Part shown: piece by piece, positions 16,338 through 56,645 of the stretch
Layout: every line of letters begins with the position of its first letter
Position numbering within the stretch: position 1 is the first letter of the stretch
Source of the DNA: an uncultured Alphaproteobacteria bacterium
Lineage (GTDB): Bacteria; Pseudomonadota; Alphaproteobacteria; Rs-D84
Direction: 5' to 3'
DNA length: 64,000 nt
Assembly: GCA_951801825.1 (NCBI GenBank)
Contig: CATOOF010000001.1
Span: 264,936-328,935 of the forward strand
Notes under the pieces: model-generated
Told to the model about the DNA's origin: nothing
Databases searched by the model: none
What the model saw: the letters and a program-made list of their open reading frames with translations, nothing else
Program-made: the position numbers and the translations under genes

Positions 16338-16610
16338 ATGTCCATTACAAAAGCAAAGACAGCGGAACTGGTAAAATCTTACAAGACAACTGATACCGAC
16401 AATGGCGGCAGTGCAGAGGCACAGGTTGCAATTTTAACAGAACGTATCCGCAACTTGACGGACCACATGAAGGCTAACCATAAGGACCAGCACTCAAAGC
16501 GTGGCTTGTTGCTGATGGTTAACCGCCGCAAGAAATTGCTGGCCTACATCAAGAAAAACGATGTTGCGAAATACGAAGAACTGATTAAGAAATTAGGTCT
16601 GCGTAAATAA
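16338..16610 (+). CDS. rpsO: Ribosomal protein S15
   Basis: Primary binder of the central domain of 16S rRNA in the 30S subunit. Start ATG 16338 with AAAAAGGAAAAGAA upstream gives 90 aa, the exact family size. Core: GSAEAQVAILTERIRNLTDH, then HKDQHSKRGLLLMVNRRKKL. Longer in-frame extensions would run back into truB. pnp, the usual partner, is not downstream. Confidence 0.97.
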   Translation: MSITKAKTAELVKSYKTTDTDNGGSAEAQVAILTERIRNLTDHMKANHKDQHSKRGLLLMVNRRKKLLAYIKKNDVAKYEELIKKLGLRK

Positions 16611-16614
16611 TATC

Positions 16615-16640
16615 ACGCCGGGTTTCCCCGGCGTTTTTTT
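16615..16640 (+). terminator. Terminator of rpsO
   Basis: CGCCGGG-TTTC-CCCGGCG followed by TTTTTTT, 5 bases after the rpsO stop. Confidence 0.9.
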
Positions 16641-16680
16641 ATGTCATTGCGTGGGGGTGCTGTTGCAACCCAGTTAATAT

Positions 16681-16709
16681 TTGCAAATAGCAAAATAATC
16701 CTGTATAAT
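16681..16709 (+). promoter_or_regulatory. Promoter of structured RNA copy A
   Basis: TTGCAA (16681-16686), exactly 17 bases, TATAAT (16704-16709). Predicted start near 16716. It lies after the rpsO terminator, so copy A is an independent transcription unit. Confidence 0.7.
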
Positions 16710-16715
16710 TATCCT

Positions 16716-16887
16716 TGTATCAGCGTGTTGCGGATATGAGGCTTCTAAACCTCTTGATTCAGAGCGTACCAGCGTACGAAAATGGCTCCAAACTTGGTTG
16801 GAGGGGGTGAATAAATTGAATAAACCCGCTACTGCTCTGAAGGTAGTTTAGAACCTCCAGCCACCCTAAGTTTAGAGGGTGGTTTTT
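16716..16887 (+). ncRNA. Unrecognised structured RNA, copy A
   Basis: No open frame of note. Helices: P1 GAGG(C)TTCTAAA 16738-16749 with TTTAGAACCTC 16847-16857; P2 TTCAGAGC 16758-16765 with GCTCTGAA 16834-16841; P3 GTAC/GTAC 16766-16777; a hairpin CTCCAA/TTGGAG 16786-16803; P4 GGGT/ACCC 16805-16827 with the conserved A/T-rich loop ending ATTGAATAA. It ends in the terminator CCACCC/GGGTGG plus T5 (16861-16887). GGTTGGAGG (16796-16804) can also pair with the CCTCCAGCC just before the terminator, an alternative fold. The same architecture, with compensating base changes, is seen in copies B and C. Family unknown to me. Confidence 0.72.
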
Positions 16888-16902
16888 GCATTTATTTTTT
16901 TC

Positions 16903-16931
16903 TTGCGCTATTCCTATTGATGTGATATTAT
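16903..16931 (+). promoter_or_regulatory. Promoter of structured RNA copy B
   Basis: TTGCGC (16903-16908), 17 bases, TATTAT (16926-16931), starting 15 bases past the T-run of copy A. Predicted start near 16938. Confidence 0.6.
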
Positions 16932-16937
16932 TCATTT

Positions 16938-17144
16938 GCACTAGTGATACTAGTGTGAGGCGTCTAAACCTCTCTTTCAGAGCGTGCCCGAGGCACGTAA
17001 AATACTCTTACCATATCCACATGGTTGGAGGCCAGTGATATATAAAAATAAGCTGGGCTATTTTTCTCTGAAAGCTAGTTAGACCCTCCAACCGCCTAAA
17101 AATATCTTATATTTGTTAAGATTCAATTCTGCGGTTAATTTTTT
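16938..17144 (+). ncRNA. Unrecognised structured RNA, copy B
   Basis: Tandem second copy. A 5' hairpin CACTAGT-GAT-ACTAGTG (16939-16955) precedes P1 GAGG(C)GTCTAA 16957-16967 paired with TTAGACCCTC 17079-17088; P2 TTTCAGAG 16975-16982 with CTCTGAAA 17066-17073; P3 CGTGCC/GGCACG 16983-16997; ACCAT/ATGGT 17010-17025; P4 CCAG/CTGG 17032-17056. GGTTGGAGG (17023-17031) faces CCTCCAACC (17085-17093). The terminator arms are AACCGC 17090-17095 and GCGGTT 17131-17136, then T-run. Every helix differs in sequence from copy A but keeps pairing. No gene follows in this orientation, so it looks like a free-standing small RNA. Confidence 0.7.
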
Positions 17145-17149
17145 GTCTC

Positions 17150-17340
17150 CTGGGATGGAAGGCTCTCTCCTCCGTCTTTTGGCTGGCAAAAAATATGTAG
17201 GGGCCTGTTTTTCCGTCTTCTCATCTCCAATCAAAGAAACGGTGACGGGCCCCGACCTATAAACACGATGCGTTTTCTATATTCTGGCCCGGTGGCACTA
17301 TCCTCGGCTCTGGTGCATAGCCGGGCCGCATTGCAAAAAC
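17150..17340. other. Intergenic stretch with two GC-rich hairpins, possible further RNA
   Basis: No credible coding frame. Visible pairings: GGGGCC 17200-17205 with GGCCCC 17248-17253, and GGCCCGG 17286-17292 with CCGGGCC 17321-17327, the latter enclosing GCAC/GTGC and possibly bracketed by ATGC 17268/GCAT 17328. Strand, promoter and ends are not evident. I looked for 4.5S, tmRNA, RNase P and 6S landmarks and did not find convincing ones. Confidence 0.3.
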
Positions 17341-17344
17341 ATAT

Positions 17345-17372
17345 AAAAACACCGGCATTAGCCGGTGTTTTG
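17345..17372 (-). terminator. Terminator of the minus-strand TPR gene
   Basis: AAAACACCGGC-ATTA-GCCGGTGTTTT, 17 bases past the stop codon at 17388; symmetrical A/T flanks allow action on both strands. Confidence 0.8.
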
Positions 17373-17387
17373 GTTTGTTTTTTTATC

Positions 17388-18392
17388 CTACTGCTGATTG
17401 GCGGAAATGTTATTTAAATCTATAATCAGCCCCTGCAGGCGCTCTACGCTGTCAACATCGTTCAGCGCTGTACCAATCGTCAGCGCGGATTCCAAATCAC
17501 TGCGGGCGGCGTCTATATTGCCTATTTTCAAGTTCAGCGCAGCCGATTTTTCAAAATAGCTCATCGCGCTGGACGATAGTGATTCACGCTCGTCTGCGGA
17601 TGTGGCGCCTTGAATCTGCTCTGAAATTACGCGCACCGCCGATGCATAATCGTTAATTGCCGCGGCATACTGGCCCAGTGCCGTAAATGCCTCGGCCCGT
17701 TCGGCGTAAACATTGGCTGATACCACGCCATCGGGCAGTGCCAGCGAGCTGGTGTAATCTGCGATTGCACCCTCCCAGTTTTTCAGCCACAGGTTCAGCT
17801 GGCCCCGGCGGGCGTACAAGTCACGCATCTGCAGAACGTTGTTCGGGCGTTCTGTGCGCGCGGCCAGGGCGCTGTTGATATCGTTCAGCGCGGCCGTATA
17901 ATTTTCCAGGCGTGTATTCAGCAATGCGCGGTCATAATACGCAACGGAATTTTTGGCATCTTTTTCGATTGCCGCGTTAAAGTCATCCATTGCGGCGGCA
18001 TAGTTGCCGGCCTGCATGTATGCCTCGCCCCGCAGGACCAGCGCATCAATATTTTCATCTGATGCCTCAACCGCGGCGGTTAAATCAGCCACGGCCGCAT
18101 CCAAATCACCCGACAGCAGCTTTGTCTTGCCGCTTTCGTAATAATCACCGGACTGCAACAGGGCTTCTTCTGTTATTTCAACGTTATTTGTGGTCGGTGT
18201 TGTTGTACCGTGACTGCGCCCCAGGATATAGAACGTAGCCGCGATAAAGAACAAAATTATAAACCAATAAATATAAATCGACAGTGACCAAGAACCGCCA
18301 GTTGTCTTTACAGGTGTTGCGCGCACCGCGGATTTTGCGGGCTTTTGAGCCTTTTTGGCCGGAGTGGTCTTTTTAGCAGGTGTTTTTTTCAT
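17388..18392 (-). CDS. Membrane-anchored TPR protein with Lys/Ala/Pro-rich N-terminus
   Basis: 334 aa. The first 30 residues are a basic KKTPAKK-type tail, followed by a single membrane helix at about 36-58 (YIYWFIILFFIAATFYIL), so the TPR part probably faces the periplasm. TPR units are clear: ALLQSGDYYESGKTKLLSGD, DALVLRGEAYMQAGNYAAAM, VAYYDRALLNTRLENYTAAL and VYAERAEAFTALGQYAAAIN. No enzyme motif; likely a scaffold, partner unknown. It precedes no co-oriented gene before the terminator. Confidence 0.72.
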   Translation of the reverse strand: MKKTPAKKTTPAKKAQKPAKSAVRATPVKTTGGSWSLSIYIYWFIILFFIAATFYILGRSHGTTTPTTNNVEITEEALLQSGDYYESGKTKLLSGDLDAAVADLTAAVEASDENIDALVLRGEAYMQAGNYAAAMDDFNAAIEKDAKNSVAYYDRALLNTRLENYTAALNDINSALAARTERPNNVLQMRDLYARRGQLNLWLKNWEGAIADYTSSLALPDGVVSANVYAERAEAFTALGQYAAAINDYASAVRVISEQIQGATSADERESLSSSAMSYFEKSAALNLKIGNIDAARSDLESALTIGTALNDVDSVERLQGLIIDLNNISANQQ

Positions 18393-56158: not shown

Positions 56159-56190
56159 AAAATCCCCGCCACATGGCGGGGTGTTTTTTT
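56159..56190. terminator. Terminator of fabZ
   Basis: AATCCCCGCC-ACAT-GGCGGGGT then TTTTTTT, immediately past fabZ and before the convergent small HTH-like gene. Confidence 0.9.
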
Positions 56191-56434
56191 ATTTCGCCTC
56201 AATCCCGGGCCAGTTGCATTTTGCCACCCTGTCCGGTGATACAATCCGCGTAAACAGATATAATTGGTACGCGGATATCGGTGCCTGGGCGTGTTCAAAC
56301 GCCTGGTACAGCGACCAGCCGATATGCATATTACGCGCGATCCAGTATGGGCTGATGTCGCCATTTCTGCGTGCGCGCCGCATCAGGCGGCCGATGGTTT
56401 CGTAAAACTCATGCTCTGTTTTTATGTGTATCAT
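56189..56434 (-). CDS. Small HTH-like (XRE-type) protein behind RNA copy C
   Basis: 81 aa from ATG 56434, with GGAGCG upstream. Sequence IGRLMRRARRNGDISPYWIA, then MHIGWSLYQAFEHAQAPISA and YQLYLFTRIV follow the XRE/Cro helix-turn-helix order (helix, turn at GD, helix, 'E-A-P' after helix 4), though divergent. It may bind DNA. It lies 23 bases downstream of the terminator of structured RNA copy C in the same orientation, so read-through of the RNA would include it. Confidence 0.5.
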   Translation of the reverse strand: MIHIKTEHEFYETIGRLMRRARRNGDISPYWIARNMHIGWSLYQAFEHAQAPISAYQLYLFTRIVSPDRVAKCNWPGIEAK

Positions 56435-56457
56435 TTTTCGCTCCATTGTTTTTAAAA

Positions 56458-56611
56458 TTAAAAACACCGCCTTGATGAAGGGCGGTTGGAGGTTCAAAAC
56501 TACTACGAGAATAGCGTTGCTTATTCAATATATTCGCAACCCTCCAACCGGTTGTGGAGTTTAAAGCTCGTAAGAGGTTTTGAAGCCTCACATCGGTAAT
56601 CACCCGATGCA
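56458..56611 (-). ncRNA. Unrecognised structured RNA, copy C
   Basis: Third copy, on the minus strand. 5' hairpin CATCGG-GTGATTA-CCGATG (56608-56590), then P1 GAGG(C)TTCAAAA pairing with TTTTGAACCTC; P2 TACGAG with CTCGTA; a weaker inner hairpin TCCA/TGGA; P4 GTTGC/GCAAC enclosing GAATATATTGAATAA; and GGTTGGAGG facing CCTCCAACC. The terminator ACCGCC/GGCGGT (56486-56466) plus T-run follows. P1, P2 and P4 all have base changes on both sides that preserve pairing relative to copies A and B; the P3 hairpin is lost. It lies directly upstream of the small HTH-like gene. Confidence 0.72.
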
Positions 56612-56617
56612 GTATGA

Positions 56618-56645
56618 ATTATATCAGACGTGTTAAGATATGCAA
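56618..56645 (-). promoter_or_regulatory. Promoter of structured RNA copy C
   Basis: On the minus strand TTGCAT (56645-56640), 16 bases, TATAAT (56623-56618). All three copies have a TTGC-type -35 and their own promoter. Confidence 0.7.

Follow-up and report, generated by a model that had tools for sequence, protein, structure and literature searches.

RNA A, on the plus strand of the window (the whole 64,000-nucleotide stretch of DNA that was analysed), is interpreted as one copy of a multi-copy leader of the C4/sRNA-Xcc1 type that would act by transcription attenuation, with the helix S1 as the antiterminator and the helix P3 together with an intrinsic terminator as the default. The probability of this interpretation is estimated at about 0.55. 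As judged from the comparison of copies, the competing pairings themselves are real; they are conserved and belong specifically to the form that the C4/sRNA-Xcc1-type RNA takes in this lineage. If the interpretation is true, an RNA core familiar from phage immunity would serve here as a new expression platform, multiplied into dozens of leaders in a gut lineage that is host-associated and has undergone strong genome reduction.

The source genome comprises 897 kb in 4 contigs, and its GTDB genus includes Candidatus Enterousia intestinigallinarum and Ca. E. merdequi. Enterousia is placed in the order Rs-D84, with genomes mostly smaller than 1 Mb, and a partner-dependent life was suggested for it (PMC12306168, in part).

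Anatomy of the RNAs in the window

A promoter-like sequence of RNA A (TTGCAA - 17 nt - TATAAT) was read from the sequence at positions 16681-16709. It is followed by P0 (16718-16736), a 5' hairpin (TATCAGC-GTGTT-GCGGATA) at the presumed transcript start, whose stem sequence varies among copies, and by H5 (16738-16753), a GAGG-loop-CCTC hairpin, which carries P1a in its loop. P1a (TCTAAAC, 16744-16750) and P2a (TTCAGAGC, 16758-16765) are the partners of P1b (GTTTAGA, 16846-16852) and P2b (GCTCTGAA, 16834-16841), respectively, as indicated by the conservation of P1 and P2. The three-way junction is composed of S1a (GGTTGGAGG, 16796-16804), the S2 hairpin (GGGT/ACCC, 16805-16827) with the conserved unpaired core GAATA..AATAA, the S3 hairpin (CTAC/GTAG, 16829-16846) with P2b inside its loop, the linker P1b, and S1b (CCTCCAGCC, 16854-16862), which closes the junction. 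The last bases of S1b are the start of the stem of the intrinsic terminator (CCACCCT..AGGGTGG and a T run, 16861-16887), and its CCTC is able to extend P1. Comparison and covariation point to S1a as the pivot, which pairs with either S1b or the upstream strand P3a (CTCCAA, 16786-16791). P3a, supported by comparison, covariation and folding, is a competitor that the earlier, sequence-only reading of this DNA had overlooked.

That reading had placed GGTTGGAGG in three RNAs, and this was reproduced: besides A, it is found at 17023-17031 in RNA B, a second tandem copy (16954-17140, plus strand), and at 56541-56549 in RNA C, a leader copy with a terminator after S1b (56450-56620, minus strand). The partner, CCTCCAGCC in A, is CCTCCAACC in B (17085-17093) and in C (56484-56492, minus strand), also as described there. 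The general order of the elements from 5' to 3' is TATAAT, P0, H5 with P1a in the loop, P2a, sometimes an extra hairpin, P3a (CTCCAAC), S1a (GGTTGGAGG), S2, S3 with P2b in the loop, the linker P1b, S1b (CCTCCAACC), and the terminator. The downstream strand CCTCCARCC had further been regarded as half of P1; its CCTC part does lie in that helix, but the remainder lies outside. The long P1 including GAGG/CCTC, considered as the main alternative to S1, was demoted to a minor extension because copies with GGG/CCC hairpins still retain CCTCC in S1b.

CCTCCARCC occurs 6 times on both strands of the window against 0.61 expected, and 0 of 100 shuffles reached 6. GGTTGGAGG with one mismatch is not enriched alone in the window (9 versus 9.6), and the evidence therefore rests on pairing. 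RNA A and RNA B are much more stable than shuffled sequences (z of -4.3 and -5.9, respectively), and the junction of A alone reaches -25.4 kcal/mol (z -3.65).

Conservation and covariation of the competing helices

Of the 183 genomes of the GTDB family, 145 contain the exact pattern GGTTGGAGG..CCTCCARCC, which is thus represented in 12 of 13 genera and reaches up to 37 copies per genome; the reversed pattern, used as a control, had 0 matches in all 183. A search of the source genome with R1, a covariance model of the three-way junction, returned 43 matches, 2 of which are the antisense reading of listed modules, leaving about 41 modules; R1 was positive in 48 of 59 genomes of the order. The class 1 set contains 134 modules from the genus and family of the source genome (Candidatus Enterousia, Rs-D84), entered by an exact S1, the correct orientation and the presence of 100 nt upstream; the variant modules E1-E4, m10a, m12a and m14a lie outside the class 1 counts. 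Modules E1-E3 stand in a row at C2:62468-62679 (L029) with neither their own promoter nor a 5' half, and their outer stems covary.

At a threshold of at least 7 Watson-Crick base pairs, P1 was found in 120 of the 134 class 1 modules and P2 in 102 of 126 (8 of the 134 were left out of this test), and P3 reached at least 7 bp in 86 of 134, against swap controls of 1.9%, 1.4% and 0.9%, respectively, which leave the kinship between copies in place. The S3 loops are nearly all different, with 128 distinct loops among the 134 modules. H5 is not clearly over its swap control in class 1 modules. In 127 of 134 class 1 modules, the last five bases of S1b contain the start of a terminator-like hairpin with a T run. 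By a stricter count, requiring 5 or more T within the 8 nt that follow the best hairpin, terminators were recognized in 90 of 134 class 1 and 29 of 36 class 2 modules, and the strong T run is missing in 44 of the 134.

Class 2, defined by GTCAGGAGG/CCTCCTGAC, is present in 59 of the 183 family genomes, including the source genome. Its upstream strand is CTCCTG where class 1 has CTCCAA. The class 2 upstream strands pair with their own S1a in 27 of 36 modules at 7 bp and in 36 of 36 at 6 bp, versus 0 of 36 with the class 1 S1a at 6 bp; reciprocally, the class 1 upstream strands match their own S1a in 86 of 134 modules at 7 bp and the class 2 S1a in 2 of 134. The terminator starts within S1b in 35 of 36 class 2 modules. 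In 13 further modules of the source genome, all 9 of 9 S1 pairs are kept in 11, several of them with changed sequences, and 8 of 9 in the other two.

P3a, S1a and S1b were thus seen to change together, as would be expected if a single strand had to take part in both helices. The comparison of the modules shows that S1a is complementary to both P3a and S1b, that the 3' end of S1b is common with the terminator, and that these complementarities co-change. From the three RNAs of the window, it had been proposed that helices sharing GGTTGGAGG and CCTCCAACC exclude one another and overlap the terminator; such helices proved to be conserved and covarying. Independent drift of GGTTGGAGG and its partner, which had been named as evidence against the proposal, was not seen among the copies, the strands changing together instead.

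Outside the family, 41 places were collected, of which 31 gave a usable row. At least 7 bp of P1 were found in 26 of 31 (control 8%) and of P2 in 23 of 29 (control 3%). P3 is weak there: 14 of 31 have 8 bp with G-U allowed, versus about 20% of swapped pairs. The outside rows and the phage rows described below were picked by S1 complementarity and provide no independent test of S1. A plasmid search with one outside copy gave no match.

Relationship to sRNA-Xcc1 and C4 RNAs

The junction resembles sRNA-Xcc1 (RF02221) in its three-way arrangement of S1, S2 with a GAAUA..AAUAA-like core, S3, and a linker before S1b, all in the same order. The RF02221 model aligns end to end with RNA A at 31.1 bits, below the gathering score of 53. 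Against 20 loci of the family, it gave 5 matches at 35-40 bits, and 15 loci had no match at E 0.5. sRNA-Xcc1 is the only Rfam family that matched the modules repeatedly, always under the cut-off, and none of the known cis-regulatory families scored above threshold when the window was searched against Rfam. Among 289 sampled Alphaproteobacteria, RF02221 matched 44 at E 0.01, 5 of them over the cut-off, versus 0 of 14 control genomes. One of these relatives, a 1.4 Mb alphaproteobacterium, has 13 sRNA-Xcc1-like copies (L183-L190); the downstream genes begin some 30 nt past S1b, no clear terminator is seen, and the S3 strand CTCTTT could pair with AAAGAG at the ribosome-binding site (RBS).

In Xanthomonas, sRNA-Xcc1 was mapped to an RNA of 88 nt (PMC2996969, in part); it was also found upstream of symE in integron cassettes (PMC12444791, in part), and is expressed in RNA-seq of E. 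coli O157 (PMC5331693, in part). The Rfam model lacks the upstream half (P1a, P2a and P3a), which suggests that sRNA-Xcc1, in the literature a trans-acting, virulence-linked small RNA, has been described without its upstream partner strands.

In C4, the a1/b1 target lies upstream. The Enterousia RNA is similar to C4 (RF01695, with c4-a1b1, RF03163) in having antisense strands in a compact three-stem RNA and a target copy upstream, and the upstream copy complementary to the antisense strands is present in the proportions given above for P1 and P2. RNase P, cutting at a GGW motif, releases the C4 antisense RNA of phages P1 and P7, which consists of three stem-loops; target mRNA is bound by loops a' and b', the latter of which covers the RBS, and Acinetobacter baumannii has many C4-derived RNAs with variable a' (PMC5320573, in part). 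The motif c4-a1b1 is listed in PMC2864571 (in part). The c4-a1b1 model gave one weak match on the upstream half (28.7 bits, cut-off 46.7), and the C4 model did not match positions 16600-17400 at E up to 5. Unlike C4, the Enterousia genes have no second target at the RBS, and the Enterousia RNA has the terminator and P3 in addition.

Phage copies were collected by a scan of IMG/VR (loci L378-L457), which gave at least 82 phage matches, 62 of them distinct with flanks and 59 with S1. Among the matches listed, 19 of 20 loci are over the cut-off and are thus true sRNA-Xcc1, and 9 of 9 scanned copies precede antirepressor-type genes (KilA-N, AntA, Bro-N, Rha, P22_AR or ORF6N). Also among the matches listed, P1b pairs with the upstream copy at 7 bp in 54% (control 15%) and with the downstream RBS region at 7 bp or more in 71% (swapped 15%), and P2b pairs with the RBS region in 49% (swapped 11%). 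In the Enterousia modules, the pairing of the linker with the downstream region at 6 bp or more is near the control (class 1, 23% and, when swapped, 18%; class 2, 28% and 15%), and class 1 P1b/P2b pair with the RBS at 7 bp in 7% (control 5%). A hairpin with at least 5 T in 8 nt was found in 3 of 59 phage relatives among the matches listed. P3 of at least 7 bp is present in 64% of class 1, 75% of class 2 and, among the matches listed, 0% of phage copies. Among the matches listed, the sRNA-Xcc1 members of phages are followed by an RBS copy and mostly lack an intrinsic terminator, whereas the Enterousia copies have the terminator and P3 instead. Because P3 is weak outside the family and absent in the phage copies listed, the layout of the proposed switch is specific to the lineage.

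These pairings suggest that many phage sRNA-Xcc1 copies are C4-like control elements, toggling antirepressor genes. In the mostly open-access literature, no description was found of this toggle or any other link of sRNA-Xcc1 to antirepressor RBSs, of the upstream half of sRNA-Xcc1, or of Enterousia leaders of this kind.

The main rival to attenuation is an antisense role of the same core, which is possible, especially for A and B, at a clearly lower probability. RNase P would release the three-way junction at an acceptor-like S1, and P1b and P2b would silence mRNAs in trans or in cis, with the terminator only ending the RNA and P3 acting as a folding aid. The core plan shared with sRNA-Xcc1 and the pairing of phage P1b and P2b with the antirepressor RBS region, as in C4, are in its favour, and the tandem copies that stand alone, A and B among them, are in keeping with a small RNA. 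The trinucleotide [AG]C[CT] follows S1b in 116 of 134 class 1 modules, which is at most compatible with RNase P processing. An antisense role is opposed by the absence of an RBS copy behind the Enterousia leaders, and it leaves the change of the P3 strand together with S1a and the regular spacing between terminator and gene unexplained.

Attenuation, downstream genes and other explanations

In terminator/antiterminator attenuators and T-box-like multi-copy leaders, the pivot is common to the anti-antiterminator, the antiterminator and the terminator, and many such leaders occur per genome. The Enterousia RNA resembles this class in its shared pivot strand and its many leaders per genome. In the attenuator reading, the variable 5' segment (P1a and P2a) pairs with the linker and the S3 loop (P1b and P2b) of the S1-closed junction. 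With P3 formed, S1b would be free and the terminator would form (OFF state); in the ON state, S1 would occupy the bases of the terminator and the polymerase would enter the downstream gene. In leader copies such as C, the switch would set the expression of a small HTH or secreted-protein gene. RNA A, not followed by any gene, probably either ends as a terminated small RNA or leads into B. The unpaired core of S2 would be the likeliest site for a signal.

An open reading frame (ORF) follows 115 of the 134 class 1 leaders and 34 of the 36 leaders of class 2, at a median distance of 51-52 nt, and the class 1 distance is 40-60 nt in 99 of 115. Most leaders precede genes for small HTH or secreted proteins, the signal peptides being counted by a home-made heuristic; in the source genome, most single class 1 leaders sit before small HTH protein genes. 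Among 107 scanned downstream proteins, HTH_31 was found in 20 and HTH_3 in 12, with overlap, and the other listed families in at most 11 each. Behind RNA C, a small ORF of 81 aa (56189-56434, minus strand) encodes a protein related to an HTH protein that follows another copy (34% identity over 59 aa), with no Pfam match of its own at 0.001. None of the tandem copies (A, B, and the D and E arrays) is directly followed by a protein gene. A 0.8 Mb genome has 37 copies of the pattern (L141-L159), and 21 of 22 leaders examined there precede one secreted protein family (..HIATTAYVKGAYN..), possibly a surface repertoire.

For the energy calculation, 14 of the 134 class 1 modules were left out, and the pseudoknots of P1 and P2 with S1 are outside the model. 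P3 with the terminator folds better than the best S1 fold in 116 of 120 transcripts. Calculated without pseudoknots, the S1 fold lies a median of 12 kcal/mol above the minimum (5.4 in A and 7.0 in C), and the population of S1 exceeds 50% in a single transcript of 120, even when transcripts stop at S1b. Of the properties expected of an attenuator, conserved, covarying alternative helices that exclude the terminator were found, whereas the two folds are not of comparable stability in this energy model without pseudoknots. Since S1 is rarely populated, an equilibrium switch is not predicted, and a factor, pseudoknot energy or kinetics would be needed. The computed energies favour a terminated default and speak against a simple two-state equilibrium. 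Of the terminator/antiterminator switch originally proposed, the conserved competition of helices stands, but the predicted predominance of the terminated fold and the lack of a gene behind A weaken the switching part.

A further-reaching version has a low probability: an RNA of the C4/sRNA-Xcc1 plan, by which phages control antirepressors, may have become in Enterousia an addressable attenuator that works across the whole genome. About 40 RNAs in a 0.9 Mb genome would have their own P1/P2 addresses and a common GGUUGGAGG pivot. The leaders would set the expression of entire groups of secreted proteins and of small HTH regulators, and RNAs A and B, together with the CUCCAAUC loop that follows B, would act in trans on the common pivot.

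A metabolite riboswitch, in which the S2 core would bind a small molecule, stabilise the three-way junction and block termination, is unlikely. The core GAATA..AATAA is almost invariant and outside every conserved pairing found, and a single architecture with a terminator output is shared by many leaders, which speaks for this explanation. However, a similar core is coupled to a different output in the phage copies, and the downstream genes (HTH, secreted, and unrelated ones) have no common pathway.

It is very improbable that GGAGG and CCTCC are Shine-Dalgarno (SD) and anti-SD elements, the second idea of the sequence-only reading. The GGAGG of S1a has a start codon in reach with at least 15 codons in only 19 of 134 modules, 5 of them ATG, and GGAGG is missing from many relatives outside the family. 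What speaks for a role in translation is that the downstream SDs follow the class: CAGGAG was found in 17 of 34 class 2 versus 2 of 115 class 1 genes (p 3e-11), and TGGAG in 16 of 115 class 1 versus 0 of 34 class 2 (p 0.02), and the SD of the gene could accordingly be covered by P3a or S1b. Such masking is possible as an added layer only, at which the class 2 CAGGAG hints. In class 2 leaders such as L284-L287, L298 and L299, the downstream SD is often this CAGGAG, which is complementary to the class 2 P3a/S1b. A leader peptide was considered and rejected; an open GTG frame was seen by eye in A alone, and start codons are not conserved. Chance repeats without function are refuted by the conservation and by the controls for enrichment, pairing, covariation and the reversed pattern.

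A further structured RNA lies behind B (17170-17345, plus strand), with a frozen loop TTCTCATCTCCAATCA (17218-17233, plus strand) complementary to the GGTTGGAG strand. A conserved protein behind B, E5 and D2 was rejected, as no open frame is shared and a structured RNA is found instead. The 16-nt complement of TTCTCATCTCCAATCA has 4 exact places in its own genome, all of them its own antisense, and 4 with 3 mismatches, with none closer. The RNA with this loop was found at 19 places in 7 of 183 genomes, with R1 modules close by in the checked loci; with only 7 genomes, TTCTCATCTCCAATCA as a general trans-acting loop cannot explain the frozen pivot elsewhere and was discarded. The same structured RNA is also present at C2:61764-61974 and C2:81842-82007, after tandem modules, and its stems covary around the invariant loop.
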